Part shown: positions 7,034-54,189 of the stretch, piece by piece | Position numbering within the stretch: position 1 is the stretch's first letter | How the letters are laid out: each line of letters starts with the position of its first letter | Made by a program: the position numbers and the translations under genes | Assembly: GCA_017620395.1 (NCBI GenBank) | Contig: JAFZQJ010000030.1 | Coordinates: forward strand, 1-54,189 | Length of the DNA: 54,189 nucleotides | Direction of reading: 5' to 3' | Source of the DNA: Clostridia bacterium | GTDB taxonomy: Bacteria; Bacillota; Clostridia; Oscillospirales; RGIG8002 | Notes under the pieces: model-generated | What the model was told of the DNA's origin: nothing | Seen by the model: the letters and a program-made list of their open reading frames with translations, nothing else | Databases searched by the model: none

Positions 7034-7036
7034 AAA

Positions 7037-36729: not shown

Positions 36730-39700
36730 TTACGGCGAGGCGTTTGTGACTATTTCCTTCGGCACGTCCTTCTCGAGCGTGACGCCGTTGATGATCACGG
36801 CGGCCGGGTTCGCATCGGTGTTCACGGTGAAGGTCGCTTCGTTCGCGGTGGTTCCGCCGGTGTTGATGACGCGGGTGGTGCCGGAGTAGGTGTTGATCAG
36901 CTGCGTGCCGTAGGCGTAGATATCCTCGGTAGAGGTGAGGGTCACGGTGTAGTTGAGCGTCTGAGTCGCGGAGGTCGAGCCTGCCGGGATCTTCGCGGAC
37001 GTGCCGCCGGAGACGGAGGTCGTCAGCACGGGCTCGGTCGTGCGGGTGATGTTGCCGCCCTCAACGTAGGTGAAGTAGTAGGCGATGTTGGGACCGTAAA
37101 CCGAGGGATAGAAGATATTTTCGCGGAAGCCGTTTGTCATATCGACGACGGCGTACTGGCTGAGCGTCACGTTCTCGACCGGCGTATCCTCGGCGGTGAA
37201 GGTCTGCATATAGACCGACGTGTTGTCGCCGAAGTTGACGTGGACTCTATCGTCCGGCACGCTGATGCTCAGCAGCGTGATGACTTCGTCGAAGACGATG
37301 TTGAAGCCGCCCTCGGACGCGGCGCGGATGATGCGCGTCTTCATATTCTCATGGCCGGCGTAGGCGTAGGTGAAGGTAACGATCTCGACGAAGTCCGCTT
37401 CGACGTCCGTCAGACTGACGCCGCCGTAGACGGTGACGGTGCGGTTGCCGGTGCGGACGCCGTTTTTGTCGAAGGTGTCGAGCGTTTCGACGCGGAGCTT
37501 ATCGACGTTGTGGGTGTCGCGGCCGGTATCGGTGATGTTCTCGACCGATCTGACGACGTAACCGTGCGGGAAGTATTCGATGGGATCGCCGTTGCTGTTG
37601 GAAACGGTGATCCTGCCGCCGATGTAGGTCAGCTCGGTGTTCGTTTCGGAGTTATAGACGACGGCGTTGCCGTTGCGGACGAAATCGTAGGAGCCGTTGT
37701 AGGCGCCCGCGAGGGCGATGGTCGCGGTCTCGTAAGGACGCTGCGCGTCGTAGCCGCCGCCCGCGGTGAGCTGGACGCCCTTGGGCAGCGTGACGTCGTA
37801 ATCCTCTTCGGTGAAGCGTTCGGTGATCGTGACGCGGTCCTTATCCTCCGCCATACCGCCGTTGGCGGCGATGTCGAGGTAGAAGAGGTACGCGCCGTCG
37901 CTGCCGGGAACGGAGCCGAGCGCGAACTCGCCGCCGTTGACCGGGATCTCGAAGTAGTAGACGGCGTTCTGCACCATCGCGGAGCCGGGGTTCGTCATGC
38001 GAACCATATCGAACGCGATGGAACCGCAGTCGGAGGCGGATTTGCCGTCCGAATAGGTGCCGTCGGCGTATTTATAGATGAAGTCGTCGCCTTCGCGCGG
38101 CTTGTATATCTGCGAGATTTCTTTGATCTCCTTCAGATCGTTGGCGTTCTTGTACCCCGCGACGACCTCGGGATCGTCCGCGGCATAGCGGAAGATGCGG
38201 TGCAGCGAGAAGAAGGAGGTGTTGCCGCCGTAATAAGAGCCGGCGAAAACGGTGATGAAGCCGCGGCGCTTGACGTGGAAGTCGATGGAGTCGTTCGGGA
38301 CCTGGAAGTTCGTGTATTCCTCGCTCTCGATGTACGCCTTCGGCAGGGTGACGTATTTATTGACGTCGATCGCGGCGTCCATAAAGTGCAGACCGTAGAT
38401 ATACCGCGATCCCACGAACGTATCGCTCATCGACTGGCGGGCGTCCTCGTAGCGCTTGAATCCGAGGGTGCTGAAGTTTATCTTTTGAGAGGCGGCACTG
38501 GAAATGTTAGCATTGACCGAGTTATTGTTCGCGTTGAAGCTGTCGGAAACGCGGTACCAACCGCTGTAAGTTCCGTTATCCACGCCGGTGATTACCTCGA
38601 GGCGCGAGTCTGCCGTGGCATTGTACGTATAGTATGTGTTACCCCAGTTTCCTGATTGAGTCCAACCGTTTGTTCCGTTCGTCGCAGTACTGATATTATC
38701 CGCGGAATACTGCGATACGCGGATATCGCCCCGGCCGCTGGATGAAGCCGGCGAGATACCGCCGGCGACGATGTAGCCGGTGTTGGTATCGGGGTTCGCG
38801 GCGTACGGCGAGGACTGGATGACGTTGATCGGGAACGCGGAGGCGTAGGTGGAGCCCTCCGTCGTCGTTCCGTCGTTGCGGAGAGCGTGGACGTCCGCCG
38901 CCGTAAGGGTAAGATCGGCGCTGCGCACGTCGGTGTAGGTCAGCTCGGTGTGAGTATCCTGCGGAGTATAGGTCAGCGTCGAGGGGCCCTGCGCGGTAAA
39001 GACCGTTTCCGCGGATACGGCGGAGGCGTCTTCTTCGGTTTCGTAGGCGTGGCCGGAAACCGTCACGGTCGCGGGAGTGAAGGTGATTTCGGTGCGGGTG
39101 ATGCGGTCGTTGTTGTTTCTGCTGTTTCTGGACGTCCAACCGTTGTTATACCGCAAATAGTAGTTGCCGCCGCTGTTACGGATATAGTAATAGTAGTTAT
39201 AGTAGTTATAATATTGGGATTGTGTGCTGTTATTCGATATTGACGCGCTGCCGTTTCCGACGACCAGATAACGTGTCACACCCCTCGCCACTGTTGAAAC
39301 AGTAGTGCTGGTTGACGCATTTCTGCCGGGCGTCGTATCATTGGAGAAAGACCAAAGAACGGCGTTGTCGTCGGAGTTCGACGCGTTCAGCGCGGGATTT
39401 GCGGCGTCGGAAACGTTCAGATAATAGCCTCCGGAGCTCTCGATCGTATAATAGTTCTTGCTCGTATCCATCAGCTTGAAGGTGTTGTTTTCAAGCGTCA
39501 GGGTATAGGTCACTTCGGCGTTGTCGACCTGAAGCGCGCAGGTAAGGTTGTTTCCGGAGTATTCCCACGCGGTGCCGGAATCGTTCTCGTTCGTCGTGAC
39601 CGCGAGGTTGGTGGTCGAGCGGGTCTGGACGTTCGCAAGCAAACCGCGCAGATAATACGTCGTGTTGCCGCTGGTCATGTAAATCTTGCCGGTCGCCTCG

Positions 39701-42600
39701 TTATAAACCCAGTCGGTCGCGTTGTTCGCGCTGTTTCCGGTGGAAACCGCCGTGGTCGAAGCGTTCAGATAGTAGGTCGTGTTTCCGGAACGCGCGGAAA
39801 TCGGGCCGCCGCTCACGGCGGAAGTGCTGACGGTCCAGTTCGTGCCGTTGAAGACGACGTAATAGGTCGTGTTGTTCGCGGTGAAGGTCAGAGTCTTGTT
39901 CGCCGCGTTATAGGTGAAGTTCGTGCCGTTGGCGGCGGTGCTGAGCGAAAGCCCCGTCGTCTGCGCGCGCAGGTAGTAGTTCGTCGTTCCGACGACGGTG
40001 TAAAGCTTGTTTCCGTCCGCGAGCCAGTAGGCGGGCGCGTCGGCGGAATTCGTCACCGCGTTCGTGCCGTTCGGAGCGAGATAGTCGTCTCCTGAATGTA
40101 CGGCGACGAGGTCGAGCGACGGATACGCCTTCCATCCGTCCGAGAAGACGAGATACCACGGCGCGTTGTTATAGGTATAGCTGAGCGTTCCGTCGCTGTT
40201 CCGCGTCCAGGTCGTCGACCGCGTGGTCGAGACCGAAACGTTGGCGCCGGAAGCGTTGAGGTAATAGGTGTTGCCGTTATAATAGGTGCTGATCGCGCCG
40301 TTGTCGAAGACCCAGCGCGTCGCGGCGTCCGCGTCGGTTCCGGAGCCGACCGCGGTCGTCGAAGCGATATTCAGATAGTTGCCGTCCTGCGAGATAACGG
40401 AGGCGTCGGCGTAGGGATAGACCTTCCACTCCGCGCCCTCGCGGTAGAGATACCACGTTCCGTTATTGTAGGTATAGGACATGTGCGCGGCGCCGTCGCG
40501 GGTCCAGACCGTTGACGCGGTCGTTCCGAGCGAAAGCGTATTCGTCGCGTTGAGGTAGCGGATCGTTCCGTTTACCACGGTGTAGAGATGGCCGTTATCC
40601 GCGTCCCACACCCAGTCCGCGGCGTTCGCGGCGTTCACGGCGGCAAACGCCGTGCCGTTGACGCCGAAGTAGTAGCTGCCGTCGGTCACGCGGTAGGCGG
40701 TCTCGGAGGGGAAGCAGGACCACGCGCCGTTCGCGTAGCGGAGATACCACTTCACGCCGGCGTTGTCGGTGAAGTAGAGCGAGTTCTCCGTCTTCGTCCA
40801 GGAGGTGCTCCTCGTCGTGCTGAGCGAAACGGCTCCCGCGGCGCTCGAGTTAAGGTAGTAGACGTTGTTGTTGTAGAAAACGCTTATTCCGCCGGTGGTC
40901 TCGTCGTACGCCCACTCCGCGGTATTGCCGGGGTTGTTCGCAACGCCGTTGACCGTGGTGTTTCCGCTTCTGTTGAGGTAGTAGCCGTTCGAGCGGATGC
41001 GGAAGGTCTCCTTGCCGGGATAGACCGACCAGCCGTTGTTATAGGTCAGATACCACGTGTGGTTGTTGTAGGTGTAGCTCAGCGTATCGTCCGCGTTGCG
41101 CGTCCAGTTGGTCGTGGAAGCGGTCGTGCCGACGGAAAGCGTGTTGTTGTTCCCTCTGTTGAGGTAGTAGGTGCTTCCGTTGGCGTTGGAATAGGTGTAG
41201 AGGCGGCCGTTTTCGAGCACCCAGCCGTTCGCGGCGTCGGCGTCCGCAGTCGACGCGAGGGCGTTCGCGGAGCTGAGGGTCATGTAGTTGGCGCCGTTGG
41301 AGACCTTGAAGCCGTTTTTGATCTCGCCCGTGTAGGACATGTTCGTAACGGTCATCGTCTCCTGATACATGTAAAGGAAGTTATCGTTTGTATTGTAGTA
41401 GTAATACATTCCCGACTCGTCGGAAGAATAATAACGCGCGGCTTTTGGGGGGATGTTCTGATTCTGGTTGGCAGTGATTGAGAAAGTACTCGACGTCGCG
41501 GTGGTGACGCGGCTGACCTCGACTCCGTGCTCGTCGCGGACGACGGTCTGCGCGGTCGGGTAAGCGGTCGTCGGCGTTCTGTTACCGGTGAGGTTCGACC
41601 TGACGTCCGTCAGACGGGTGAACAGGTTATCCATCTTTACGCTGCCGCCGAAGCCGGGGCCCTCGTCCTGCAGATTTTTATACATGACGTTCTGCGTCTC
41701 GACGGGCGCGGCGAGGGTAACTCTCGTCACGTTCAGGTCGAGGCGGTAGGGCTCGGTGCAGTAGCCGACAAGGCCGTAGTCGGACTGGTTGGTCGTGCCG
41801 CCGCCGCTCTCGGAGGCGGGCATGCCAAGCGCCGAAACGCCGCTGCCGACGGTCACGGTGGAGTTCGCGACCGCGACGCCGTTCATGACGCCGTTGACGT
41901 AGCCCGCGGCGACGCCGACGAGGGATTTGTTCTCCGCCGGCGCGGTGGACTCGATGGTCACGGTGTTCAGCGTGAAGTTCTCGACGCGCGCGGTGTGGTT
42001 GTTCGCGTTCGCGGAGCCGTTATACTCGCCGACGACGCCGAAGAAGCCGATGATCTGGTCTCCGGTCGTGCCTTCGTTCGGGATATCCGTAACGGTGTTC
42101 GCGTTCGTGACGGTCAGATTCGAGATGGTGTGGCCGTTGCCGTTGAACTCGCCTATGAAGGGGTATTCGGCGGTGCCGCTCGGGGGAAGCACCCACCCGG
42201 TCATATCGAGGTCTTCGGAAATGTAGAAGTAGACGGGCTCGATCTCGCCTGTTTCCGGATCGGGCTCGTTGAAATATCCGAGGTTCTGCAGCCACGCGAA
42301 ATAGTAAAGCTGCAGCGGATATCTGATTTCGAAAGCGCAGCCGGCTTCGCTTGTCAGCGGATTGCCCTGGCTGTCGTAGCCGTGGGTGGGGTTGCCGTCC
42401 GCGTCGTAGCTGACGTTGTACTGCTGCGTCGAGGTGCCGTCGCCGCTCTCGAAATAGGACTTGTGCACGTAGGAGGTCGCGCCGACAGTCGATTCAAGAG
42501 AGTTGCTCAGCCATGCGTAAACAGCCGACGTCGTCAGCGCCAGCAGGAAAAGCAAAAGCACAAAGCTCGAAGCGAGCTGCTTTTTCGCAAACTTTTTCAA
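36730..42600 (-). CDS. Giant exported repeat protein with SipW-type signal peptide
   Basis: 1956 residues. TTG start (42600) with GGAAAGGAAG 9-10 nt upstream. The leader KKFAKKQLASSFVLLLFLLA ends in AVYAWLSNSLE, the A-x-A-W-[F/L]-S pattern of SipW-dependent proteins. Residues about 90-330 hold a GLUG-like motif (YPFIGEFNGNGHTISNLTVT), as in beta-helical adhesins. From about 430 to 1150 there are seven tandem units of about 100 residues rich in Tyr, Asn and Thr, with recurring W-x5-G-x-[LI]-[YS] and YYLN/YYLR patterns and an intervening LSYTYNN-x-WYL. The C-terminal 750 residues are mixed beta-type sequence without repeats, LPXTG or membrane anchor. It follows the riboswitch-controlled SipW-type gene by 42 bp. 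Probably a fibre-associated adhesin or matrix protein; no named family recognised over the full length. Confidence 0.88.
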   Translation of the reverse strand: MKKFAKKQLASSFVLLLFLLALTTSAVYAWLSNSLESTVGATSYVHKSYFESGDGTSTQQYNVSYDADGNPTHGYDSQGNPLTSEAGCAFEIRYPLQLYYFAWLQNLGYFNEPDPETGEIEPVYFYISEDLDMTGWVLPPSGTAEYPFIGEFNGNGHTISNLTVTNANTVTDIPNEGTTGDQIIGFFGVVGEYNGSANANNHTARVENFTLNTVTIESTAPAENKSLVGVAAGYVNGVMNGVAVANSTVTVGSGVSALGMPASESGGGTTNQSDYGLVGYCTEPYRLDLNVTRVTLAAPVETQNVMYKNLQDEGPGFGGSVKMDNLFTRLTDVRSNLTGNRTPTTAYPTAQTVVRDEHGVEVSRVTTATSSTFSITANQNQNIPPKAARYYSSDESGMYYYYNTNDNFLYMYQETMTVTNMSYTGEIKNGFKVSNGANYMTLSSANALASTADADAANGWVLENGRLYTYSNANGSTYYLNRGNNNTLSVGTTASTTNWTRNADDTLSYTYNNHTWYLTYNNGWSVYPGKETFRIRSNGYYLNRSGNTTVNGVANNPGNTAEWAYDETTGGISVFYNNNVYYLNSSAAGAVSLSTTRSTSWTKTENSLYFTDNAGVKWYLRYANGAWSCFPSETAYRVTDGSYYFGVNGTAFAAVNAANAADWVWDADNGHLYTVVNGTIRYLNATNTLSLGTTASTVWTRDGAAHMSYTYNNGTWYLYREGAEWKVYPYADASVISQDGNYLNIASTTAVGSGTDADAATRWVFDNGAISTYYNGNTYYLNASGANVSVSTTRSTTWTRNSDGTLSYTYNNAPWYLVFSDGWKAYPSLDLVAVHSGDDYLAPNGTNAVTNSADAPAYWLADGNKLYTVVGTTNYYLRAQTTGLSLSTAANGTNFTYNAANKTLTFTANNTTYYVVFNGTNWTVSTSAVSGGPISARSGNTTYYLNASTTAVSTGNSANNATDWVYNEATGKIYMTSGNTTYYLRGLLANVQTRSTTNLAVTTNENDSGTAWEYSGNNLTCALQVDNAEVTYTLTLENNTFKLMDTSKNYYTIESSGGYYLNVSDAANPALNASNSDDNAVLWSFSNDTTPGRNASTSTTVSTVARGVTRYLVVGNGSASISNNSTQSQYYNYYNYYYYIRNSGGNYYLRYNNGWTSRNSRNNNDRITRTEITFTPATVTVSGHAYETEEDASAVSAETVFTAQGPSTLTYTPQDTHTELTYTDVRSADLTLTAADVHALRNDGTTTEGSTYASAFPINVIQSSPYAANPDTNTGYIVAGGISPASSSGRGDIRVSQYSADNISTATNGTNGWTQSGNWGNTYYTYNATADSRLEVITGVDNGTYSGWYRVSDSFNANNNSVNANISSAASQKINFSTLGFKRYEDARQSMSDTFVGSRYIYGLHFMDAAIDVNKYVTLPKAYIESEEYTNFQVPNDSIDFHVKRRGFITVFAGSYYGGNTSFFSLHRIFRYAADDPEVVAGYKNANDLKEIKEISQIYKPREGDDFIYKYADGTYSDGKSASDCGSIAFDMVRMTNPGSAMVQNAVYYFEIPVNGGEFALGSVPGSDGAYLFYLDIAANGGMAEDKDRVTITERFTEEDYDVTLPKGVQLTAGGGYDAQRPYETATIALAGAYNGSYDFVRNGNAVVYNSETNTELTYIGGRITVSNSNGDPIEYFPHGYVVRSVENITDTGRDTHNVDKLRVETLDTFDKNGVRTGNRTVTVYGGVSLTDVEADFVEIVTFTYAYAGHENMKTRIIRAASEGGFNIVFDEVITLLSISVPDDRVHVNFGDNTSVYMQTFTAEDTPVENVTLSQYAVVDMTNGFRENIFYPSVYGPNIAYYFTYVEGGNITRTTEPVLTTSVSGGTSAKIPAGSTSATQTLNYTVTLTSTEDIYAYGTQLINTYSGTTRVINTGGTTANEATFTVNTDANPAAVIINGVTLEKDVPKEIVTNASP

Positions 42601-42642: not shown

Positions 42643-43542
42643 TTACGAATGGCTGGCCGCGATCGTCATCAGGTCGTTGCTCAGTTTGATGACCTGGCCG
42701 ACGCTGGTGATGTCGCCGTTGAGCGTGGCGTCGTAAGCGCCGTATTCGCGGAGCAGCGTTTCGTCGTAGGTGACGTAGACGTAGACGTTGAGCGTTTCGT
42801 TCACGCCGTCGCCGTCCATGTCGTTCCAGTCGGCGGCGGTGTAGTCGATGGAAAGCGTTACCGAATCCGCCTTCGTGTAGCGGTCGGGATCGCCTTCGTC
42901 GCCGGTGACCGTCGTGAAAACGTTGGTCGTAGCGTCGTTCACCGTCTGCGACTTGATGACCTCATAGAGGGTGGAGTCGTTGCCGTAGGGCAGGTTGTCG
43001 ATGTTGCGGTAAAGCGTGGTAGGGTCGTCGCTGTAGATGCCGGCTCCCTTGACGATGGTCAGGCGCATCAGACTCGAAAAGAGGTTGTTCAGCGCCGCGA
43101 GCTCGGAGCCGTTGGCTATCGTGCCTTCGTCCGTGGTAATGCTCGCCGCGAGGTTGCGGCCGATCGTGAGCGCGATAGTTCCCGACTGCGGGAGATCCTC
43201 CTCGCCGGTCAGAGCGACCCTGATGACGGCGGGGGTGTAGCGGTTGCGCTGACGGAATATCAGGTCGTACTGCGGGACCTGGATATCGGTGATGGAATCC
43301 TCCCCTACTCCCACGGCGTTTTTCGCGTCGTAAAAGTAGTGCGAGTATTCGGCCTCGACGTCGTCCTGATAGGCGGTGACCGCCATGCCGTTTCCGTCGA
43401 CTTCCTTGTTCTGCGCAAACCATCCGAAGGCGGAGTTCAGATAAAGCAGAATGACGCCCAGCACGAATAAGCCGAGCAGGATCAGCGAACAGATCCTCGC
43501 GGCGAACCAGATGTTCTGCTTTCTCGTGAAATACTTCGGCAC
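42643..43542 (-). CDS. SipW-dependent exported protein, TasA/camelysin-like
   Basis: 299 residues. Basic N-terminus, hydrophobic core SLILLGLFVLGVILLYL and the processing region NSAFGWFAQNKEVDGNGMAV, which matches the SipW-type A-F-x-W-F site. The mature part is a single beta-rich domain with VTLSIDYTAADWNDMDGDGV and NVYVYVTYDETLL near the C-terminus. AAAGGTGAAAGAAAAG precedes the ATG. It directly follows a c-di-GMP-I riboswitch and its terminator, so expression should rise with c-di-GMP. Likely a fibre subunit or minor matrix protein; the fold assignment is by signal-peptide type and context. Confidence 0.8.
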   Translation of the reverse strand: MPKYFTRKQNIWFAARICSLILLGLFVLGVILLYLNSAFGWFAQNKEVDGNGMAVTAYQDDVEAEYSHYFYDAKNAVGVGEDSITDIQVPQYDLIFRQRNRYTPAVIRVALTGEEDLPQSGTIALTIGRNLAASITTDEGTIANGSELAALNNLFSSLMRLTIVKGAGIYSDDPTTLYRNIDNLPYGNDSTLYEVIKSQTVNDATTNVFTTVTGDEGDPDRYTKADSVTLSIDYTAADWNDMDGDGVNETLNVYVYVTYDETLLREYGAYDATLNGDITSVGQVIKLSNDLMTIAASHS

Positions 43543-45219: not shown

Positions 45220-47118
45220 ATGCCGCAAGTAACCGTAATCGAATCCACGCCCGCGCCGGAGCGCGCGGAAGCCGCGCCGAAGCCGCGCCGCGTCGCCGCC
45301 TACGCACGCGTCTCCACCGAAAAGGACGAACAGCAGACCTCCTACGAAGCCCAGCGCAGCTACTACACGCGCCTGATCGCCTCCCGCCCCGACTGGACGC
45401 TTGCGGGCGTCTACGCCGACGAATACTCCGGCACCGGCACGAAGAAGCGCGACGGCTTCCGCCGCATGATCGAAGACGCCCTCGCCGGCGGCATCGACCT
45501 TATCGTCACGAAGTCGGTCGCCCGCTTCGCGCGGAACACGGTCGACAGCCTGACGCACATACGCCTGCTGCGCGAACACGGCACGGAGGTCTACTTCGAG
45601 AAGGAAAATATCCGCACCTTCGACGAAAAGGGCGAGCTGATGCTGACGATACTTTCGTCGCTGGCGCAGGAGGAGAGCCGCTCGATCTCCGAGAACGTCA
45701 CCTGGGGCATGCGCGAAAGCATGCGGCGCGGCAACGCGTGGGTGCCGTACAAGTCGTTCCTCGGCTACGACCGCGCGCCGGACGGCTCGATGGCGGTGAA
45801 TCCGGAGCAGGCGGCGGTCGTGCGCCGCGTCTACGGACTTTTTCTGGCGGGGCTCACCCCCTACGGCGTCGCCCGCACGCTCGAGGGCGAAGGCGTACCC
45901 TTCGCGGCGGGGCGCGAAAAGTGGTACGCCTCCACGGTGCTGAGCATACTGCGCAACGAGAAGTACAAGGGCGACGCCCTGCGGCAGAAGACCTACTCGA
46001 AGAGCTATCTGACGAAAGAGCGCGCCGTCAACAACGGCGAGCTGCGGAAATACTACATAGCCGGACACCACGAGGCCATCGTCTCCCCCGCCGTCTTCGA
46101 CCTCGTTCAGCGGGAGCTGAAGGAGCGCGAGGGCGAGCCGCGCGCGGCGGAGGGCGTTTTCGCGCGGCGTGTGTTCTGCGCGGAGTGCGGCGGCGTCATG
46201 GGGCGCTTCACGCGGAGGCGCGGAGGCGCGGAAACGCGCTCCCTGCGCTGCTCCGGCCGCAAGTGCGGACGCTGCTCCGCCCCGCCCGTACCCGAGGAGG
46301 AGCTGAAGGCGGCGTTCGCCGCGGCGTGCGCGGCGCGGTTCGACCTGAGCGCCGCGGAGGCCGCCTGCGCGGAGGCGGTATCATCTGTCATCCTGAGCGA
46401 GCGCAGCGAGCCGAAGGATCTCACGCCGTCATCTGTCATTCCGAGGAGCCGCGCAAGCGCCGACGAGGAATCCCACACCCTTTCCGACCGGGTGCGTGAG
46501 GAGGGGGATTCCTCGGGCTTCGCCATCGGAATGACACCTCATCCGTCGCCGCCTTCGGCGACGCCACCTTCCCCTCAAGGGGAAGGCTTGGCCGACCGGG
46601 TGCGTGAGGATGGGGCGTTGACCGCCGGCCTCCCCTGTGCAAGGGGAGGTGGCGTCCGAGGCGAAGCCGGGGACGACGGAGGGGTTGTGCAATCAAACGG
46701 CTGCTTTGAGGAAACCGACAACCCCTCAGTCTCGCCCTGCTTCGCAAGTCTCGACAGCGTCTCACCGCGGGCTCGGTCAGGCCGCGGCTCTGACAGCCCA
46801 CCGGGCTGTCATTCACTACCGCGGCCTCCGCTTCGCTACCCTTGCACAGGGGAGCCAACGCGCGCGGCGGGGGATTCCCCGGGCTTCGCCATCGGAATGA
46901 CACCTCATCCGTCGCCGCCTTCGGCGACGCCACCTTCCCCTCAAGGGGAAGGCTTGGCCGACCGGGTGCGTGAGGAGGGGGCGTTGACTCCCGCGCTCCC
47001 CTCTCCCCCGCCGTTTGACGAAACGCTCTTCCGCTGCGTCGTTGAGCGCGTGACCGTCTCCCGCGCGGAGACTGTCTTCACCTTCCGCGACGGCAGCGTA
47101 ATCGTCCTCCCGCGGTGA
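45220..47118 (+). CDS. Large serine site-specific recombinase with an in-frame repeat insertion
   Basis: 632 residues from ATG at 45220 (AAAGGAG 8 nt upstream). Resolvase domain: catalytic Ser32 in AAYARVSTEKDEQQTS, with VTKSVARFARN and LAQEESRSISENV. Recombinase domain: VVRRVYGLFLAGLTPYGVAR, WYASTVLSILRNEKYKGDAL. Zinc ribbon: FCAECGGVMGRF and RCSGRKCGRC. Residues about 388-590 are translated REP modules (VILSERSEPKDLT; PSPPSATPPSPQGEGLADRV occurs twice), after which a genuine recombinase C-terminus resumes (FDETLFRCVVERVTV, VFTFRDGSVIVLP). No stop or frameshift, so the gene may still be active. Its stop lies 15 nt before the putative inversion site. Confidence 0.92.
   Translation: MPQVTVIESTPAPERAEAAPKPRRVAAYARVSTEKDEQQTSYEAQRSYYTRLIASRPDWTLAGVYADEYSGTGTKKRDGFRRMIEDALAGGIDLIVTKSVARFARNTVDSLTHIRLLREHGTEVYFEKENIRTFDEKGELMLTILSSLAQEESRSISENVTWGMRESMRRGNAWVPYKSFLGYDRAPDGSMAVNPEQAAVVRRVYGLFLAGLTPYGVARTLEGEGVPFAAGREKWYASTVLSILRNEKYKGDALRQKTYSKSYLTKERAVNNGELRKYYIAGHHEAIVSPAVFDLVQRELKEREGEPRAAEGVFARRVFCAECGGVMGRFTRRRGGAETRSLRCSGRKCGRCSAPPVPEEELKAAFAAACAARFDLSAAEAACAEAVSSVILSERSEPKDLTPSSVIPRSRASADEESHTLSDRVREEGDSSGFAIGMTPHPSPPSATPPSPQGEGLADRVREDGALTAGLPCARGGGVRGEAGDDGGVVQSNGCFEETDNPSVSPCFASLDSVSPRARSGRGSDSPPGCHSLPRPPLRYPCTGEPTRAAGDSPGFAIGMTPHPSPPSATPPSPQGEGLADRVREEGALTPALPSPPPFDETLFRCVVERVTVSRAETVFTFRDGSVIVLPR
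46381..47000 (+). repeat. REP-like modules inside the recombinase coding region
   Basis: About 620 bp of the same palindromic modules found between genes: TGTCATCCTGAGCGAGCGCA, TGTCATTCCGAGGAGCCGCG, CCTTCCCCTCAAGGGGAAGG (twice) and CCTCCCCTGTGCAAGGGGAG. They lie in frame within the recombinase gene. Confidence 0.85.
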
Positions 47119-47127
47119 CCGAACGCG

Positions 47128-47145
47128 TCCATCGTTCTCCATGAA
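47128..47145 (+). other. Putative recombination site, left copy
   Basis: CATCGTTCTCCATGAACA matches, with one mismatch, the reverse complement of 50965-50982 (CATGGTTCTCCATGAACA on the minus strand). It contains the small dyad GTTC-TCCAT-GAAC. It covers codons Phe-Ser-Met-Asn at the head of the silent cassette. Confidence 0.65.
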
Positions 47146-48010
47146 CACCACCGTGACCGCTGCTAACATGCAGGTCAAGGCCGTTGCCGATCAGGGTATT
47201 CTGATCAACGTCGAAGATACTGCTGATAGTCAGTATTGGGACAGCAACGCGACTACCAACCAGACCACGGGCATCCTGCTCCACGCCACTTCCACCGCGG
47301 ACACTACCACTTGGTATGTTGCGCACAGCAAGATTACCAGCGATGCTGCTAAAGCCGGTGCCGGCGCTCCGTCCAGCAACCTGACTACTGAAGGTTACAA
47401 GACTCTCGGCACTGATCCTTATTCCACCGCGACCTCGACAGTTGCCGCTGCTGCTGCTTCGCATCAGGCTAAGCAGGACATCACTTACGTTGATACCGGA
47501 GCTACCGGCTACACCAACGGCGAAGGCTACTATGTCAAGTATACCTACTTCCTGAAGTCCTCCGCTGAAGCGATTACCACTTCGCTGGCTCAGGGTGAGC
47601 AGAACCTCAATATCACCGTTAAAGCTACGGGCCCCGATACCGCCACTTCTGCCAATCTCGACAAGGCCCTCCGTGTTGCCGTTAAAATCGCTGGCAGAGT
47701 CTATTTCTTCGCTCCTGTCGTTGGTGCTGACGGCACTTACTATGTCAACGCCGGTTCTAACCCCACTACTCCTGTTGTCGCAGCATCTGCTAGCGCGGGC
47801 GCTACCTCTGCGACCAACGTTCTCACTATTCCTGCTGTGACCGCTGATGGTCTTGAAGCTGACGTTTTTGTTTACTTCGAGGGTGAAGATACCAACCTGA
47901 TGACCGATAACGCGCTTTCTACGCTTGACAATCTTATTGTGAGCGTCGAGTTCTCGCTCGTTAAGAACGCTTCGGCTATCTCTACCGCGCCTGGCGTCGC
48001 GCTTGCGTAA
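47141..48010 (+). CDS. Signal-less surface-protein cassette (silent partner of the SipW-type protein)
   Basis: 289 residues from the first ATG, but no ribosome-binding site precedes it and there is no signal peptide. Codons before the ATG read Phe-Ser, as in the full-length homologue (FAWFSMN). Homology to the protein at 50187-51059 begins exactly here (M-[QK]-V-[KQ]-A-V-A-[DE]) and includes LDKALRVAV and the C-terminal VFVYFEGEDTNLMTDN versus IYIYFEGEATELYTDN. Many T-ending codons give it a usage unlike its GC-rich neighbours. It is followed by its own terminators. Either a 5'-truncated gene or a silent cassette expressed after DNA inversion; the matching site favours the latter. Confidence 0.8.
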   Translation: MNTTVTAANMQVKAVADQGILINVEDTADSQYWDSNATTNQTTGILLHATSTADTTTWYVAHSKITSDAAKAGAGAPSSNLTTEGYKTLGTDPYSTATSTVAAAAASHQAKQDITYVDTGATGYTNGEGYYVKYTYFLKSSAEAITTSLAQGEQNLNITVKATGPDTATSANLDKALRVAVKIAGRVYFFAPVVGADGTYYVNAGSNPTTPVVAASASAGATSATNVLTIPAVTADGLEADVFVYFEGEDTNLMTDNALSTLDNLIVSVEFSLVKNASAISTAPGVALA

Positions 48011-48083
48011 TCAACCTACTAACTAACCCCGCGTAAATCGTTACGCACCATCAGCTACCGATCATAGCTGAACGGAAAACATT

Positions 48084-48120
48084 CCCAACGGGACGGAGTT
48101 CCCGTCCCGTTGGGCTTTCT
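48084..48120 (+). terminator. Terminator of the surface cassette
   Basis: Strong hairpin CCCAACGGGACGG / CCGTCCCGTTGGG with a short loop, followed by CTTTCT, 74 nt after the cassette stop. Confidence 0.75.
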
Positions 48121-48135
48121 GCAGAAAGTTTACTT

Positions 48136-48173
48136 AAAAAGAGCCCCCGGCAGACGCAGCCAGGGCTCTTTTT
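48136..48173. terminator. Second, bidirectional terminator
   Basis: AAAAAGAGCCC / GGGCTCTTTTT arms around a GC-rich loop, T-runs on both strands; it lies just after the cassette terminator. Confidence 0.8.
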
Positions 48174-48219
48174 GTTTTATATTGAATACTGAAGACTGAA
48201 AAATGAATAATGAATAATT

Positions 48220-48357
48220 GCGGTAAAAATAAACGACCGCGGGCTGCGTAAAGGCCTCCCCTGTGCAAGGGGAGGTGGCAGGCGCGACCGCAGGGAGCGA
48301 CTGACGGAGGGGTTGTCCGTAGGGACGAGCATTGCTCGTCCGGGCATCGACGCGCTC
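48220..48357 (+). repeat. 138-bp direct repeat, left copy (flanks hicAB)
   Basis: Nearly identical to 49670-49807 (few substitutions, balanced one-base indels). It begins GCGGTAAAAATAAACGACCG and includes CCCCTGTGCAAGGGG and GGACGAGCATTGCTCGTCC palindromes. A shared GTCATCCCGAGGGCGTAGCC module follows in both copies. Confidence 0.8.
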
Positions 48358-48780
48358 ACGTCTGTCATCCCGAGGGCGTAGCCCGAGGGACCCCACACCG
48401 AAAGATGACGGTCGGCCAAGCCTTCCCCTTGAGGGGAAGGTGGCGTCGCCGAAGGCGGCGACGGATGAGGTGTCATCCCGAGGGCGTAGCCCGAGGGATC
48501 CCACACCGAAAGATGACGGCTGCAAAAGGTGTGGGATTCCTCGTCGGCGCGTTCGCGGCTCCTCGGAACGACAGAACGTAAGCGCATACGTTGTCATCCC
48601 GAGCGAAGGCGAAGCCGGAGCCGAAGGATCCTGAAGGTAACGCCATTGTATAAGAAAAAGTGTGTATCAGGAGCGTGAACATTATCGGTTGCTCCGAATA
48701 CACACTTTTATTTTCGACACGACCTCGTCTTTAAGATCCTTCGGCTGCGCTCCCGTCGGTCGCTCCGCTCAGGATGACAA
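48358..48780. repeat. Composite REP-like cluster
   Basis: Gene-free. Copies of TGTCATCCCGAGGGCGTAGC, CCTTCCCCTTGAGGGGAAGG, and TGTCATCCCGAGCGAAGG to GAAGGATCC modules, the inverted repeat at 48655-48710, and one more CTCAGGATGACA module. Confidence 0.75.
48655..48710. terminator. Inverted repeat, likely bidirectional terminator
   Basis: AAAAAGTGTGTAT..GGAGC / GCTCC..ATACACACTTTTA arms with two internal mismatches; diverged copy of 26932-26985. Lies between the plus-strand cassette and minus-strand hicB, again convergent. Confidence 0.65.
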
Positions 48781-48862
48781 AAACGAAGACGCTCTGCAAA
48801 GGGTGTGGGATTCCTCGTCGGCGCTTGCGCGGCTCCTCGGAATGACAGAAACGCGGCGCGGA

Positions 48863-49201
48863 TCACTGATTCGCGGCGTAAGCCGTAAGCGCCTGCTCGA
48901 CCGCCTGATTGAGCGAAATGCCGTTCTTTATCGCGCGCGAAGCGACGGCGCGATGGAGCTCGGGCTTGACTCGCACGTTGAAGGTTCCCTTATACGCTTT
49001 GTCGGGTTCCTTGCCGACCTGCTTGCAGAAAAGAAGATAATCGTCGACGGCGGCGTGAAACTCCTTTTCGATGTCGGCAGCGTTTTCGCTTTCAAAAGTG
49101 ACGAGATCGCGTATGCCCTCGATCTTGCCGTGAAGCACTCCGTCTTCCGCGGAGTATTCGACGTTTGAAAAGTATCCTTTGTATTCAATCGTATTATTCA
49201 T
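48863..49201 (-). CDS. hicB: HicB-family antitoxin
   Basis: 112 residues. N-terminal partial RNase H-like HicB domain (YFSNVEYSAEDGVLHGKIEG, then FHAAVDDYLLFCKQVGKEP) and a C-terminal ribbon-helix-helix-type DNA-binding region (FNVRVKPELHRAVASRAIKN, LNQAVEQALTAY). In this family the antitoxin neutralises HicA and represses the operon. The start overlaps the hicA stop by one base (TAATG). Its likely operator is the palindrome at 49474-49492. Confidence 0.92.
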   Translation of the reverse strand: MNNTIEYKGYFSNVEYSAEDGVLHGKIEGIRDLVTFESENAADIEKEFHAAVDDYLLFCKQVGKEPDKAYKGTFNVRVKPELHRAVASRAIKNGISLNQAVEQALTAYAANQ

Positions 49202-49458
49202 TACAGTTCACCTATCCCTTCAAGCCATTCTTTCAGATTCTTCACCGCGTATTCGCGCATTTCGGACTGCGGATGCGGTTTGTGAAGCAAGATCGCCCTT
49301 TTATCGCTTTCGCGGAAAAACATTACCCGCGATCCGGACGTCTTGCCCTTCGTTTCTTCGACAAATCCGAGCCGTTTCAGCAGCGAGCGCGCCTCATCAT
49401 AAGTATAATCCTTCGGCAGCGCTCTTATTCGATCTTTCGCTTTTTCAAGTTGGCTCAC
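49201..49458 (-). CDS. hicA: HicA-family toxin (mRNA interferase)
   Basis: 85 residues from a GTG start with AAAGGAGG 5 nt upstream. The double-stranded-RNA-binding-like HicA fold is suggested by SLLKRLGFVEETKGKTSGSR and ILLHKPHPQSEMREYAVKNL. The usual GSH catalytic motif reads GSR here, with His in LHKPHP, a variant seen in clostridial HicA proteins; activity cannot be assumed. First gene of the pair, toxin before antitoxin as usual for hicAB. The pair sits inside the putative invertible segment. Confidence 0.88.
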   Translation of the reverse strand: MSQLEKAKDRIRALPKDYTYDEARSLLKRLGFVEETKGKTSGSRVMFFRESDKRAILLHKPHPQSEMREYAVKNLKEWLEGIGEL

Positions 49459-49473
49459 GCGGCGCCCTCCTTT

Positions 49474-49492
49474 GCAACTGACTTACAGTTGC
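49474..49492. promoter_or_regulatory. Operator-like palindrome at hicAB
   Basis: GCAACTGACTTACAGTTGC: perfect 7-bp arms around ACTTA. It begins directly after the -10 box and covers the expected transcription start, the place for autoregulation by HicB. Confidence 0.75.
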
Positions 49493-49520
49493 ATTATACT
49501 CCTTATATTTCAAATGTCAA
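49493..49520 (-). promoter_or_regulatory. Promoter of hicAB
   Basis: Minus strand consensus TTGACA (49515-49520) and TATAAT (49493-49498) with a 16-nt spacer. Confidence 0.85.
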
Positions 49521-49669
49521 TACTTTTATTTCAGATTTTGTGAATTTTTCTTTGTTTCTTGTCGAGTTTTCTTGGCTTTTTCTGAAGTTTTCTTTGAAAA
49601 CCGACTGCTTTTCTTGGAATGGCGTTAGTTTTAATTACTTTTACAATCGTGTTTATCGCTGTACCAAAA

Positions 49670-49807
49670 GCGGTAAAAATAAAACGACCGCGGGAGGCGT
49701 AAAGGCCCCCCTGTGCAAGGGGAGGTGGCAGGCGCGGCCGCAGGGAGCGACTGACGGAGGGGTTGTCCGTAGGGACGAGCATTGCTCGTCCGGGCATTGA
49801 CGCGCTC
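49670..49807 (+). repeat. 138-bp direct repeat, right copy (flanks hicAB)
   Basis: Near-identical to 48220-48357 and in the same orientation. Recombination between the two would delete hicAB. Confidence 0.8.
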
Positions 49808-50040
49808 GCTTTGAGGAAGCCGACAACCCCTCAGTCTCGGACGGCGTGAGGTCTGTCATCCCGAGGGCGTAGCCCGAGGGATCCCACACCGAAAGATGAC
49901 GGTCTGCGAAAGGTGTGGGATTCCTCGTCGGCGGCTTCGCCGGCTCCTCGGAATGACAGAACGCGCGGGCGCGTTCGCGGCTCCTCGGAATGACAGAAAC
50001 ACGGCGCGGGCGCGGCATAAAATAAAACGACCGCAGGCTG
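49808..50040. repeat. REP-like modules
   Basis: Gene-free. TGTCATCCCGAGGGCGTAGC, TTCCTCGTCGGCGGCTTCGC and CGGCTCCTCGGAATGACAGA modules. A third short AATAAAACGACCGC piece of the 138-bp repeat ends the block. Confidence 0.7.
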
Positions 50041-50104
50041 CGTCTGCCCACGGCGTTTGTAAGTGGTTTTTAATTTAATTCTTTGGCCAAAAGATTAAAT
50101 TGTT

Positions 50105-50134
50105 TCCGGGAGGGAGAGGATTTCTCCCTCCCGG
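50105..50134 (-). terminator. Hairpin after the expressed surface-protein gene
   Basis: CCGGGAGGGAGA / TCTCCCTCCCGG stem with a short loop, about 55 nt after the stop, at the same relative place as the hairpin after the silent cassette. Followed on the minus strand by AACAATTT. Confidence 0.55.
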
Positions 50135-50186
50135 ATCGGTTTTTGCTTTGCGTAAGTCTTTTACGCGAGGTTAGTCAGTGGGGTGA

Positions 50187-51059
50187 TTACTCAGCCTCGA
50201 AAGTGACTTCGATATCGAGCTCGTTCAGGCTGGCATAGATGTTATCGGTGTAGAGCTCAGTAGCTTCGCCTTCAAAGTAGATGTAGATACGGACGTCAAC
50301 GCCGCCAAATTTGCTATTGGTCGTATCCTTCGCAGGAACGGTCTCGTTGGCGGTCGCGTAAAGGTTACCAACGCTCGTAGGAGCAAGGTTGGAAACGGTA
50401 GTAGTACCGCTTCTGTTACCATCAGCACCAACACCGGTACCAACTGTATTGGAGGCGTCGCCGCCGAGAGGAGCGTAAACAACGCACTGAGCATTAGCAA
50501 TGATAGCTACGCGGAGAGCCTTGTCGAGGTCAGGGGAATTAGTAGAACCAGTAACATCAACCGCCTTAACTCTGAGGTTTTTCGCAAGAGCAGCATCGCT
50601 GGTGGAGCGGATGTTGAACTCTTTGACAACATAGTAATTGCCGTCGAGATCGGTAGCGGGATTGTTGGAGATAACACCGTCACTCCAGCCGGCCGCAGCA
50701 GTCAAATCAACATAGGTGCCGGCCTTAGCAGTAGTAGCATCAGTGCTCGCAGCAGAAGCGTGCAGCCATTTGGAGGTAATAGCGCTGGCGGTGCCGGTCG
50801 CAGCAGTAGAAGTCGGGCGAAGCGCGGTCGCGGTGGTCATACCGGCATCATCGGTGTAGCTGTAAGCGGTGTTGTCATCGGTTCCGGTAGCGAGGACGTT
50901 GTAGCGGATTTCAATACCGCCTTCAGCAACGGCCTGAACCTTCATGCCGGTCGCGGTGACCTGGTTGTTCATGGAGAACCATGCGAAAGTGGAGGTGCCC
51001 AGGAGGATGGCGCTGACAAGCAGCATCGCGAGGGCGGGGATAAGTCTCTTAAACTTCAT
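50187..51059 (-). CDS. SipW-dependent surface protein (expressed partner of the switch)
   Basis: 290 residues. Signal peptide MKFKRLIPALAMLLVSAILL followed by TSTFAWFSMNNQ, the clear SipW-type A-W-F-S site, then a beta-rich mature domain ending IYIYFEGEATELYTDN and DIEVTFEAE. GAAAGGAAACACAACA precedes the ATG. Controlled by a consensus promoter 540 nt upstream and two tandem c-di-GMP-I riboswitches. From Phe-Ser-Met-Asn onward it aligns with the headless cassette at 47141-48010 on the opposite strand. The many T/A-ending codons suggest high expression or a different origin from its neighbours. Likely the major fibre or coat subunit. Confidence 0.9.
   Translation of the reverse strand: MKFKRLIPALAMLLVSAILLGTSTFAWFSMNNQVTATGMKVQAVAEGGIEIRYNVLATGTDDNTAYSYTDDAGMTTATALRPTSTAATGTASAITSKWLHASAASTDATTAKAGTYVDLTAAAGWSDGVISNNPATDLDGNYYVVKEFNIRSTSDAALAKNLRVKAVDVTGSTNSPDLDKALRVAIIANAQCVVYAPLGGDASNTVGTGVGADGNRSGTTTVSNLAPTSVGNLYATANETVPAKDTTNSKFGGVDVRIYIYFEGEATELYTDNIYASLNELDIEVTFEAE
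50965..50982 (-). other. Putative recombination site, right copy
   Basis: On the minus strand CATGGTTCTCCATGAACA, 17 of 18 positions identical to 47128-47145 but in inverted orientation. It spans the codons directly after the signal peptide (Trp-Phe-Ser-Met-Asn). Confidence 0.65.
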
Positions 51060-51338
51060 TGTTGTGTTTCCTTTCTTTGTTTGGATTTTGTTGATAAAGT
51101 TTTTATCGAGAATCCTCAGGACGCCTCCTTCGGATAATCAATACGTGGGTGGGGGGGAAGTTCTGTCATTCTGAGCCCGCAGGGCGAAGAATCTCGCGCT
51201 GCCTTCTGCATTCCGAACGAAGTGAGGAATCTCAGGTTTGAGATACTTCGGCGCGCCGCGCCTCAGTATTCGCAAGGTTACGTGAGATCCTTCGACTCGC
51301 GCTTCGCGCTCGCTCAGGATGACAGCTTCGCGGGGAAT
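51060..51338 (-). promoter_or_regulatory. Proximal leader of the surface-protein gene
   Basis: No gene. Holds the ribosome-binding region and REP-like modules (TGTCATTCTGAGCCCGCAGG, CTCGCTCAGGATGACA) between the second riboswitch terminator and the start codon. Confidence 0.5.
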
Positions 51339-51379
51339 AAAAAAGCCGCGCTGTTCGCGCTGAGTCGAACATCGCAGCT
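51339..51379 (-). terminator. Riboswitch-controlled terminator (proximal)
   Basis: AGCTGCGATGTTCG (51366-51379) pairs with CGAACAGCGCGGCT (51344-51357) over 14 positions with one mismatch, followed by a run of T. The 5' arm is the 3' strand of the aptamer, so ligand-bound aptamer should allow readthrough. Confidence 0.85.
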
Positions 51380-51434
51380 GGCTACCCCGGTGGGGTCCTT
51401 TAGCTTTGCGTCACCGGATTGCTCCGGCTTTGCC
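51373..51434 (-). promoter_or_regulatory. c-di-GMP-I (GEMM) riboswitch, copy 3 (proximal of tandem)
   Basis: Minus strand: GGCAAAGCCGGAGCAATCCG with a GCAA loop, GTGACGCAAAGCTAAAGG, CCCCACCGGGG hairpin, TAGCCAGCTGCG. Closely matches copy 2. Second riboswitch of the tandem leader. Confidence 0.92.
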
Positions 51435-51456
51435 AAGTGTTAGGTTTTTTGAAATT

Positions 51457-51496
51457 AAAAAGCCGCGCTGTTCGCGCTGTGTCGAACATCGCAGCT
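51457..51496 (-). terminator. Riboswitch-controlled terminator (distal)
   Basis: The same 14-position stem as the proximal one (51483-51496 with 51461-51474), followed by a run of five T. Confidence 0.8.
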
Positions 51497-51550
51497 GGCT
51501 GCCCCGTAGGGCCCTGTAGCTTTGCGCCGCCGGATTTCTCCGGGTTTGCC
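51490..51550 (-). promoter_or_regulatory. c-di-GMP-I (GEMM) riboswitch, copy 4 (distal of tandem)
   Basis: Minus strand: GGCAAACCCGGAGAAATCCG with a GAAA loop, GGCGCAAAGCTACAGG, GCCCTACGGGGC hairpin and AGCCAGCTGCG. It differs from the others by GGCGC in place of GACGC in the core; the adjoining GCAAAG is kept. First riboswitch of the leader, about 40 nt after the promoter. The core change could alter affinity. Confidence 0.85.
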
Positions 51551-51601
51551 AAGTCTTCAGTTTGGTCGCTCAGGCGAACCGCCCTTCGCGATTGTGGTTA
51601 G

Positions 51602-51630
51602 ATTATAGCGCACCGTTTCCGGTTTGTCAA
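51602..51630 (-). promoter_or_regulatory. Consensus promoter of the surface-protein gene
   Basis: Minus strand TTGACA (51625-51630) and TATAAT (51602-51607), exact consensus with a 17-nt spacer. The strongest-looking promoter in the window. Confidence 0.92.
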
Positions 51631-51713
51631 GAGTTTTTTTCAAAATTTTTCAAAAAATTTTTGCGGGATATAGATGTGGGGAAGCGATGCGGGGCGGGAC
51701 ACAAGATGTTGTG

Positions 51714-52305: not shown

Positions 52306-52324
52306 AGCGTATCCTTTCCTTTCT

Positions 52325-52539: not shown

Positions 52540-53265
52540 TTACGCTTCTATTTCTTCTTCACCGCCGGTGACTTCCATCCGCATGTCGATCTTGAACTCG
52601 CCGCCGATTATCTTATCGACGCAGTCGGGGTCGGGGCCCTCGAGCCAGATGACGACGGTGTATTTCGTGATGTCGCCGGGTTTGAAGTTCTCAATGAATT
52701 TCTTGACTATCGTGTTGCCCGTCTGGAACGCCGTAGTGCCGGGTTCCGGGCCTTCTATGCCGTCCGTCCTCGCGTAGGCGTAGTCGACGTATTCGCCGTT
52801 GATGTAGAGCCTGATACGCGCCGCCTTCTCGATCTCGAAGGTCATATTGGCGATGTACATTTCGTACGAGTAGGTCAGCGTCTTCGTGCCCATGTTCTTG
52901 CAGTAGAAGGTGTAGGCCACGTAGTTGTCGCCGTTGTGCTCGCCGTCGACGTTGTCGAGCCAGTCGGGAAGGGTGGAGCCGTCGATGTTCGTTATCTCCT
53001 CCGCGATCTCGGCGTTCAGGCGGGACGAGTAGACGTCGAAGCCGGGGCTTTCGGAAAGCGAGAGCGCGTAGTCGTGGTTATCGAACTTATTGACCGAAAC
53101 GGTGAACGCGCCGAATTTCATATAAAGCACCGATGCGACGTAGCCGACGACCAGCAGCAGCGCGGCTATGAGTATGATTATCGGTATCATCTTCGTCCAT
53201 AATCTGTACCGTTTGACCTCGGTCGCGGTTCTGCGGATGGTCAAACCGGATGATTGCTGAGCCAT
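52540..53265 (-). CDS. Membrane-anchored extracytoplasmic protein, possibly TasA-like
   Basis: 241 residues. One membrane segment at about 27-50 (MIPIIILIAALLLVVGYVAS) and an external beta-rich domain with FGAFTVSVNKFDNHDYALSL, YTFYCKNMGTKTLTYSYEMY and an acidic end (TGGEEEIEA). There is no AWFS site, so it may stay anchored rather than be cleaved by the SipW-like peptidases. GGAGGTGAG lies upstream and the ATG overlaps the stop of the degenerate EAL gene (ATGA), so the two are coupled. No family recognised with confidence; relation to the exported fibre proteins is by fold impression and context. Confidence 0.65.
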   Translation of the reverse strand: MAQQSSGLTIRRTATEVKRYRLWTKMIPIIILIAALLLVVGYVASVLYMKFGAFTVSVNKFDNHDYALSLSESPGFDVYSSRLNAEIAEEITNIDGSTLPDWLDNVDGEHNGDNYVAYTFYCKNMGTKTLTYSYEMYIANMTFEIEKAARIRLYINGEYVDYAYARTDGIEGPEPGTTAFQTGNTIVKKFIENFKPGDITKYTVVIWLEGPDPDCVDKIIGGEFKIDMRMEVTGGEEEIEA

Positions 53266-54189
53266 CAGACGCTCACCTCCTTCTGTTCTACCGCTTCTTC
53301 AAGCGTCATGCGCAGGCCTCCGTGTTCAACGGCGCCTTCGTAGCCCGCCGACGGGATGTAGCCGGAGCAGTCGGCTCTGCTGTGCGCGGTTATCTGCTCG
53401 TCGTTGTATATTCCGTCGCCGATAACGTCGACGGGCAGCGACCGCAGGAAGTTCACGAACGCCGCGAACACATGGTTTTTGTCGCGGTTATCCGACATCG
53501 CCGATACGTGCGGCGACAGCAGCACCATGTCGACGGGGAGCTCCACGAGCGCGGTCACGGGGCAGTCGCGTTCGCCGCAGCCTGTCATGAGCGTGCGCAC
53601 CTTCAGCAGCTTCATCGAAAGCAGCGACGTGCGCGCGGTCTCGACCTCTTCGTAAAGCAGCGTGCGCGGGAACTCAAGGCAGAGCTTGGACGGATCGTCG
53701 AGCTTCAGCTGCCCGAGCAGGTCCTTCATCCACGAGTAGAGGTCCGGCTGACGCGTCAGCGACGCCGGCACGCGCGCGGTCACGAAGTCCACGTTGCGGT
53801 CGAACGCTTCGAAGGTCTGTATCGCTTCGACCGCTTTCGCGACGTTCCAGCGGGCGAGGCGTTCGCCGCGGTCGGTCTCGTCGGCGGCGTATGCGTATTT
53901 CTCCGGCGGGATCACGCCTTCGAGCACGCTGTTTATATAAGTGAAGCTTCTGTATGCGATCGGCAGGCGCCGGTAGCAGCTGTTTATCTGCGCGAAACGC
54001 ATCTCAAGCGGCGCGATGCCCGATGAGAGCGTCATTTTTACGTAGTCGAGCGCCGGAGCGTCCGCGGGGGCGGGGGAGTCCGCGGGGGCGGGGGAGTCCG
54101 CTGCGGCGGGGGCGAGGGAGTCCGCTGCGGCGGGGGAGGGGGAGGGGGCGTCCGCTGCGGCGGGGGAGGGCTCCCCGGTGTAAGGGGAG
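53265..54189 (-). CDS. Degenerate EAL-domain protein (5' end outside window)
   Basis: At least 307 codons; the frame is open to the right edge. The visible N-terminal part is an Ala/Pro/Asp linker (ADSPAPADSPAPADAPALDY) of simple repeats, preceded by a translated REP module. The domain follows the EAL fold: SYLKRLPVD-like VTALVELPVDMVLLSPHVS, LEFPRTLLYEEVETA for the LEITES strand and VIGDGIYNDEQITAH for the AEGVE strand. However, EAL, DDFGTG, KID and the catalytic Glu are all missing (RTLMTGCGERD replaces DDFGTG). It cannot be an active phosphodiesterase of the usual kind; a binding or scaffolding role with its coupled membrane partner is possible. A Met at 54035 is an internal codon, not the likely start. 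Confidence 0.75.
   Translation of the reverse strand, partial: SPYTGEPSPAAADAPSPSPAAADSLAPAAADSPAPADSPAPADAPALDYVKMTLSSGIAPLEMRFAQINSCYRRLPIAYRSFTYINSVLEGVIPPEKYAYAADETDRGERLARWNVAKAVEAIQTFEAFDRNVDFVTARVPASLTRQPDLYSWMKDLLGQLKLDDPSKLCLEFPRTLLYEEVETARTSLLSMKLLKVRTLMTGCGERDCPVTALVELPVDMVLLSPHVSAMSDNRDKNHVFAAFVNFLRSLPVDVIGDGIYNDEQITAHSRADCSGYIPSAGYEGAVEHGGLRMTLEEAVEQKEVSV

Follow-up and report, generated by a model that had tools for sequence, protein, structure and literature searches.

What is a gene for a large serine recombinase doing directly in front of a surface-protein body that lacks a leader, when a homologous full-length gene lies on the opposite strand? The arrangement occurs in contig JAFZQJ010000030.1 of assembly GCA_017620395.1 (Clostridia bacterium; genome G000), and the whole 54,189 nucleotides (nt) of this contig are referred to here as the window. 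From comparison of the DNA and its relatives, we consider with good confidence that the locus is an inversion switch, in which the recombinase would flip a 3.8-kb segment and so join a fixed promoter, riboswitches and leader to either of two protein bodies. A search of one literature library returned no paper on this system, and none confirming the premise of an earlier sequence-only reading of this DNA, namely that large serine recombinases drive such switches in gut Firmicutes. The core features are as follows, where "parked" denotes the leaderless (headless) copy beside the recombinase and c-di-GMP stands for cyclic di-GMP, aa for amino acids and pLDDT for the predicted local distance difference test.

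45220..47118, plus strand: large serine recombinase, ATG at 45220 (Pfam Resolvase, Recombinase and Zn_ribbon_recom)
47130..47147, plus strand: parked-side recombination site, likely crossover TC at 47136-47137
47135..48010, plus strand: headless subunit body B, no leader (P0241, 289 aa; AlphaFold2 mean pLDDT 87.5)
47138..50975, no strand assigned: predicted invertible segment of 3.8 kb, between the two putative crossover TC dinucleotides
50187..51059, minus strand: full-length subunit gene, signal peptide plus body A (P0001; AlphaFold2 mean pLDDT 85.7)
50966..50983, minus strand: expressed-side recombination site, likely crossover TC at 50977-50976
50979..51059, minus strand: constant signal-peptide exon MKFKRLIPALAMLLVSAILLGTSTFAW, from the sequence and from a hydrophobic leader helix in the structure model
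51370..51444, minus strand: gene-proximal c-di-GMP-I riboswitch (Rfam RF01051, 50.2 bits)
51487..51560, minus strand: gene-distal c-di-GMP-I riboswitch (Rfam RF01051, 48.3 bits)
51602..51630, minus strand: promoter-like TTGACA-17-TATAAT, a 12/12 match in a consensus scan, which is no proof of a promoter

Inverted sites would join one leader to either of two bodies in frame

The 18-nt sequence CAT[C/G]GTTCTCCATGAACA (pattern CATSGTTCTCCATGAACA) is present as an inverted pair, at 47130-47147 on the plus strand and 50966-50983 on the minus strand. The sequence-only reading had recognized this shared inverted site, though its coordinates were off by one or two bases. These are the sole matches within the window when up to three mismatches are allowed, and none arose in 100 shuffles. 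Searched across the 1.93-Mb genome, the 13-nt core of the site, GTTCTCCATGAAC, matches exactly at these two places only; with one mismatch it matches four further places, compared with one for a backwards control pattern. The segment is thus flanked by inverted sites, as in an inversion switch. No dyad symmetry of at least 8 nt was found around either site, and no second site was found behind the parked body in the window.

Both site copies encode Phe-Ser-Met-Asn in frame, and each body is open through to its stop codon. In the exported copy these residues directly follow the leader, which on the minus strand is itself preceded by the TTGACA-17-TATAAT match and two c-di-GMP-I aptamers in tandem. 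In the parked copy only the stop codon of the recombinase lies upstream, at 47118 and 11 nt ahead of the site, and the first in-frame ATG of body B is at 47141. The sequence-only reading had proposed that the two copies share codons and frame, that the recombinase lies immediately before the headless body, and that promoter, riboswitches and signal peptide are fixed; each point is borne out here.

Some genomes with a related recombinase carry headless cassettes

The recombinases of the window, G394 and G395 each combine Resolvase, Recombinase and zinc-ribbon domains in one protein and are therefore large serine recombinases; in the window, a TTG at 45022 would open a longer frame. We surveyed 23 genomes: G002 and 22 others in which the subunit has a match. 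Five of them (G000, G002, G394, G772 and G395 itself) encode a recombinase sharing at least 62% identity with that of G395; in another four the identity is 40-50%, and in the remaining fourteen no recombinase passed the threshold. Across 394 genomes of the order, a recombinase more than 60% identical to the G394 enzyme was found only in G000 and G002. Headless cassettes among the five recombinase genomes number one in G000, one in G394 and four in G395. When the loci near related recombinases were compared (80 retained from genome contigs, out of 523 relatives), only two had headless cassettes close by, and these belong to the two nearest relatives: a goat rumen genome (locus L033, G394) with one cassette, and UBA1243 (locus L034, G395) with four, set among ATPase genes on contig C27. 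The sequence-only reading had proposed a search of related genomes for additional headless cassettes, and the anatomy it described (inverted sites, shared frame, headless body, fixed leader) can now be extended to relatives with several of them. Several partial frames that share a constant start, as in a shufflon, are found in G395 with its four parked bodies; the window has one parked cassette.

Three side observations concern these loci. Three ATPase genes (one ATPase_2/DUF234, two AAA_14/DUF4143) lie between the G395 parked cassettes at 1486-6106 of L034. A second serine recombinase gene stands directly before the G394 switch recombinase (L033, 8784-10010). In G002, an open reading frame that by eye is Fic-like and has an in-frame stop lies between the recombinase and the site (L031, 6989-7895).

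Closer to the window, the site with up to one mismatch was absent from the same-genus genomes G001 and G003 and occurred once in G002, at a contig end. G001-G003 yielded no full-length subunit, and a DNA search with the leader side returned repeat families only. Viral contigs hold relatives of the recombinase, yet none of the best 80 of 185 viral loci had a headless cassette; locus L258 gave a single weak full-length-like match, and a body profile search of viral contigs recovered no relative. The one plasmid record matched, Ruminococcus albus 7 pRUMAL02 (33%), lacks an annotated recombinase over the 17 kb examined. Among database homologues of both bodies (223 listed, from 120 of 513 and 120 of 177 matches), 197 carry a hydrophobic leader, and 11, the window's own included, start exactly at Met-Asn, some of which may be mis-called starts. 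Two further listed homologues lack a leader and carry a few extra residues. P0026, P0055, P0090 and P0257 were left out of the headless count, since their starts appear truncated. The headless homologue P0249 and the recombinase relative P0145 (55%) both have 447558 as the length of their longest contig, which suggests that they lie on one contig.

The best-surviving alternative, which we nevertheless judge improbable, is cassette capture: circular cassettes would be integrated and excised at a site behind the signal peptide, with the parked copies as secondary-site integrations. Cassette-chromosome recombinases act in this way, and the closest curated models are two cassette recombinases, CcrB (84.8 bits) and CcrC (73.7 bits), both far below their cut-offs of 900. 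The bodies differ widely among species, and one G395 cassette (6258-7076) runs opposite to the other three, as capture might produce. However, exchange between the inverted sites of the window would invert the intervening DNA and excise nothing, and the parked bodies are leaderless, with no second site found behind them in the window. Inversion and capture are not mutually exclusive.

Contig ends point to a probable crossover within the site

In three of the five recombinase genomes a contig ends inside the site. Contig C20 of G002 ends in CATCGTTCTCCATGAACAC, beyond the recombinase; contig C149 of G772 ends in GGTTCTCAATGAACA, ~450 nt upstream of the recombinase start; and contig C18 of G395 ends within the leader at GCATGGTTC, where the four parked cassettes start to differ. 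Because assembly graphs end contigs at branches, each stop can be read as the last base common to alternative continuations. The chance of at least three such ends in five genomes is ~9e-6, assuming 300 contigs per genome (G002 has about 90) and leaving longer flanking repeats out of account.

These ends also bear on where the strands are exchanged. Three bases before ATGAAC are invariant across the 11 aligned sites that have both halves: T at -5, C at -4 and C at -2. At that position the G395 cassettes read TCTCA, TCTCA, TCACT and TCACG, and the leader contig stops exactly after TC; joining the G395 leader at TC would give Phe-Ser or Phe-Thr, always in frame. GTTCTC is kept in the left half of five of eight non-leader sites, outside the coding part, where no protein needs it. 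Together, these observations suggest a crossover at the invariant TC inside the first Phe codon.

A mixture of strains, or an assembly artefact, could also end contigs here if strains with different bodies shared a leader. The relatives are indeed draft or metagenome assemblies whose subunit genes break at other places as well. Even so, a difference between strains at precisely the site would itself require a past exchange there, no subunit gene is needed at the recombinase-side ends in G002 and G772, and the leaderless parked cassettes are left unexplained. We therefore rate this explanation as somewhat less probable even than capture. As an observation apart, contigs also end inside the subunit gene in two genomes that have no recombinase at the 62% level (L012 of G072, 1501-1638, and L198 of G769), which hints at other sources of variation.

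The recombinase and the parked bodies are maintained

Sequence divergence indicates that the recombinase is under purifying selection. The ratio of nonsynonymous to synonymous divergence (dN/dS) for the core of the G000 and G002 enzymes is 0.073, with nine synonymous and two other changes in 387 codons, and the G395 and G772 enzymes differ by a dN of 0.107 and a dS of 0.90. The substitution pattern likewise indicates that the G395 parked cassettes are maintained as protein under purifying selection. Over 253 codons, cassettes c2 and c4 share 74% identity, and changes fall at 142 of 180 synonymous sites (saturated) and at 106 of 579 other sites (dN 0.21). This is unlike genes that are never translated; each cassette must therefore be exported on occasion, and for that it has to be joined to a leader.

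In the window, bodies A and B are homologous (41% in the best match) and are exactly the two subunit copies in the genome; with a dS of 1.77 they are too diverged for their dN/dS to be weighed. GC content at third codon positions is 0.58 in the parked body and 0.59 in the exported copy, against 0.83-0.89 in three neighbouring genes. Codon usage of the parked body correlates best with that of the exported copy (0.865), ahead of the giant gene listed below (0.693) and the recombinase (0.514). The open frame and this shared codon usage indicate that body B, too, is kept as protein. It also has a confident predicted fold on its own. The decay of the cassette that would have counted against a switch is not seen, and the homologous minus-strand gene and the separate terminator-like hairpin for each cassette, both noted in the sequence-only reading, are likewise in place.

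48084..48114, no strand assigned: 14-pair terminator-like hairpin behind body B (hairpin scan, listed on the minus strand only)
50105..50135, no strand assigned: 14-pair terminator-like hairpin behind body A (hairpin scan, listed on the plus strand only)

At the thresholds applied, Pfam and NCBIfam contained no family that matched either body, so membership of the TasA/camelysin families has no curated match behind it. Fold searches gave weak matches only, the TasA fibre and archaeal TasA-like filaments among them. On these models the protein is likely a fibre subunit.

Purifying selection and intact frames bear directly on the idea that the locus is a fossil, static now, in which a recombinase-bearing mobile element once duplicated or rearranged the subunit. 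The single orientation in the five contigs holding the window proteins and the repeat-derived stretch in the recombinase (see below) would fit such a history. A static remnant does not account for selection on both recombinase and parked cassettes, for a parked frame that is open with matched codon usage, or for contigs that end inside the site in three relatives, and we give this explanation slightly less credence again than strain mixture. Finally, RecA recombination or gene conversion between the two homologous, inverted genes, with no dedicated recombinase, is very improbable, as similarity around the sites amounts to ~18 near-identical nt and 73% across 71 nt, and the recombinase tracks the headless cassettes across genomes.

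Evidence weighing against inversion

Several points weigh against the inversion switch. No flipped form of the window was found in the protein database, where P0001 and P0241 each occur on five contigs with one sequence each, and the window contig crosses both sites without a break. In G772, which has the recombinase, we saw no headless cassette. Subunit genes break elsewhere too (60 nt past the site in G072, 79 nt past it in G772, and inside the body in G394 and G769), and the gene is thus break-prone for more than one reason. Large serine recombinases, moreover, usually join unlike sites, and do so one way. Lastly, the window enzyme contains an odd repeat-derived stretch and may be impaired.

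46380..47010 (limits approximate), plus strand: in-frame repeat-derived stretch of the recombinase, which aligns at the coiled-coil position of other large serine recombinases

The arms of this repeat (46432-46598 and 46865-46964) recur outside the gene, and in the window lineage the stretch is in frame across four variants that differ in length. A coiled coil in the zinc-ribbon domain was not found in this lineage. By a crude heptad score of our own, the window enzyme reaches 0.95 and P0125 scores 0, against 1.38-1.80 for the coil-bearing G394, G395, G772, P0131 and P0145. The coiled coil of integrases usually enforces one-way integration; by analogy, its loss in the window lineage would free the recombinase for reversible reactions. 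Dense families of short intergenic repeats occur at 45000-52500 and genome-wide, and some are translated in frame, within the recombinase and within a signal peptidase-like gene at 30205-31539.

Neighbouring genes

The switch lies within a larger cluster, which includes a toxin-antitoxin pair inside the invertible segment.

35479..36393, minus strand: SipW-like signal peptidase I (TIGR02228 above cut-off; NF046067 (SipW) at 6.2e-23, below its cut-off)
36730..42600, minus strand: 1956-aa exported protein, the giant gene, 34% over 1443 columns to its G394 counterpart
42643..43542, minus strand: 299-aa exported protein beyond the recombinase, 37% to its G021 counterpart
48863..49201, minus strand: HicB-type antitoxin gene inside the invertible segment (Pfam HicB, 73.5 bits)
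49201..49458, minus strand: HicA-type toxin gene inside the invertible segment (Pfam HicA_toxin, 36.2 bits)
52540..53265, minus strand: 241-aa operon protein upstream of the subunit, with counterparts in G395 (66%), G021 (49%) and G394 (36%)
53265..54035, minus strand: EAL-domain protein (Pfam EAL, 65.6 bits; 54% to its G395 counterpart)

The HicA/HicB pair (48863-49458) could guard against deletion of the segment. A search of the four genomes of the genus recovered the 241-aa protein from G000 alone; its counterparts in G395, G021 and G394 each lie just upstream of the subunit gene. For the 299-aa protein, matches in G394, G395 and G772 are limited to the leader region. Two window proteins in the cluster score above the TIGR02228 cut-off as SipW-like signal peptidases, with the SipW model below its own cut-off; the cluster thus holds the peptidase that SipW-dependent export calls for, in line with a subunit leader that we take to be of the SipW type.

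In G021 the order is a 255-aa protein, the subunit, SipW and a 301-aa protein, with no recombinase between and no EAL gene in the part compared. As G021 shares this gene order without the recombinase, the switch occupies the place where a plain operon has its subunit gene. The G021 operon has c-di-GMP-I aptamers as well, and the window has two more, at 44428-44502 and 43621-43695. The leader-side contigs fetched for G394, G395 and G772 gave no riboswitch hit at the gathering score, and c-di-GMP riboswitch control is therefore not general. An open reading frame at 27205-29595, in the same cluster as the four c-di-GMP-I riboswitches, by eye appears to encode GGDEF and EAL domains.

Discussion

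Our analysis supports a scheme in which the recombinase would cut both sites, probably at the TC within the first Phe codon, and rejoin them after inversion. The signal peptide would then export the other body, and the first would be parked beside the recombinase without start or leader. Because the crossover falls two or three residues past the likely cleavage point, nearly the whole mature protein would be swapped. In G395 the same scheme with four parked cassettes would be shufflon-like. The riboswitches and the EAL gene suggest that the c-di-GMP level sets the amount of subunit and the orientation of the DNA sets which body is made. It is an even call whether the fuller model holds, that of a c-di-GMP-controlled chromosomal shufflon in which a coil-less recombinase acts as a reversible invertase, and in which each body and its donor strand travel together so that cassettes are self-compatible. 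Self-compatibility would follow from the crossover TC, which lies just behind the signal peptide and keeps the donor strand with the body.

Known systems offer close parallels. In the type 4 pilin switch of Moraxella, inversion by Piv exchanges an expressed pilin body for a headless one, the two having a 5′ part in common. That system differs in its recombinase, which is of the Piv/MooV (IS110-like) kind, and in its substrate, a type 4 pilin rather than a SipW-type exported subunit. The slpA/slpB pair of Lactobacillus acidophilus encodes an S-layer protein, unlike the locus here, and we know of no recombinase gene within its segment. As in our model, its active and silent surface-protein genes are interchanged by inversion, in that case of a 6-kb segment, and in the laboratory 99.7% of the cells have the same orientation (PMC6015585). 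The plasmid shufflons of R64, R721 and TP114 pilV with Rci share with our loci a constant N-terminus, several partial frames, inverted cassettes and an adjacent recombinase gene (PMC9045228). They differ in using a tyrosine recombinase, whereas the adjacent enzyme here is serine-type, and in varying the C-terminus (69-113 residues on a 345-residue constant part) rather than nearly the whole mature protein (PMC9045228). The phage tail-fibre switches Gin, Cin and Min combine a serine-family recombinase with a constant start and alternative ends, and Min has multiple cassettes (PMC6109161). Such enzymes are small invertases that act with a Fis enhancer, as described for Hin (PMC3798978), in contrast to the large recombinase with Recombinase and zinc-ribbon domains found here. 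TasA/SipW fibres resemble our subunit in the presumed SipW-type leader, the SipW-like peptidases of the cluster and the weak structural match to the TasA fibre. The proposed mode of action resembles that of a shufflon or of the Moraxella pilin switch, and the locus stands outside those families because its recombinase is of another kind.

If this account is true, uncultured Clostridia would change their whole surface-fibre identity by inversion behind one constant leader while a second messenger sets the amount. The locus would then parallel, on the bacterial surface, the switching of pilins and S-layers, in organisms of which only assemblies are known, and would be a case in which a large serine recombinase acts as a shuffler, on short sites open to testing. 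It would also account for the assembly breaks in these genes and for the "headless" hypothetical proteins among their relatives.

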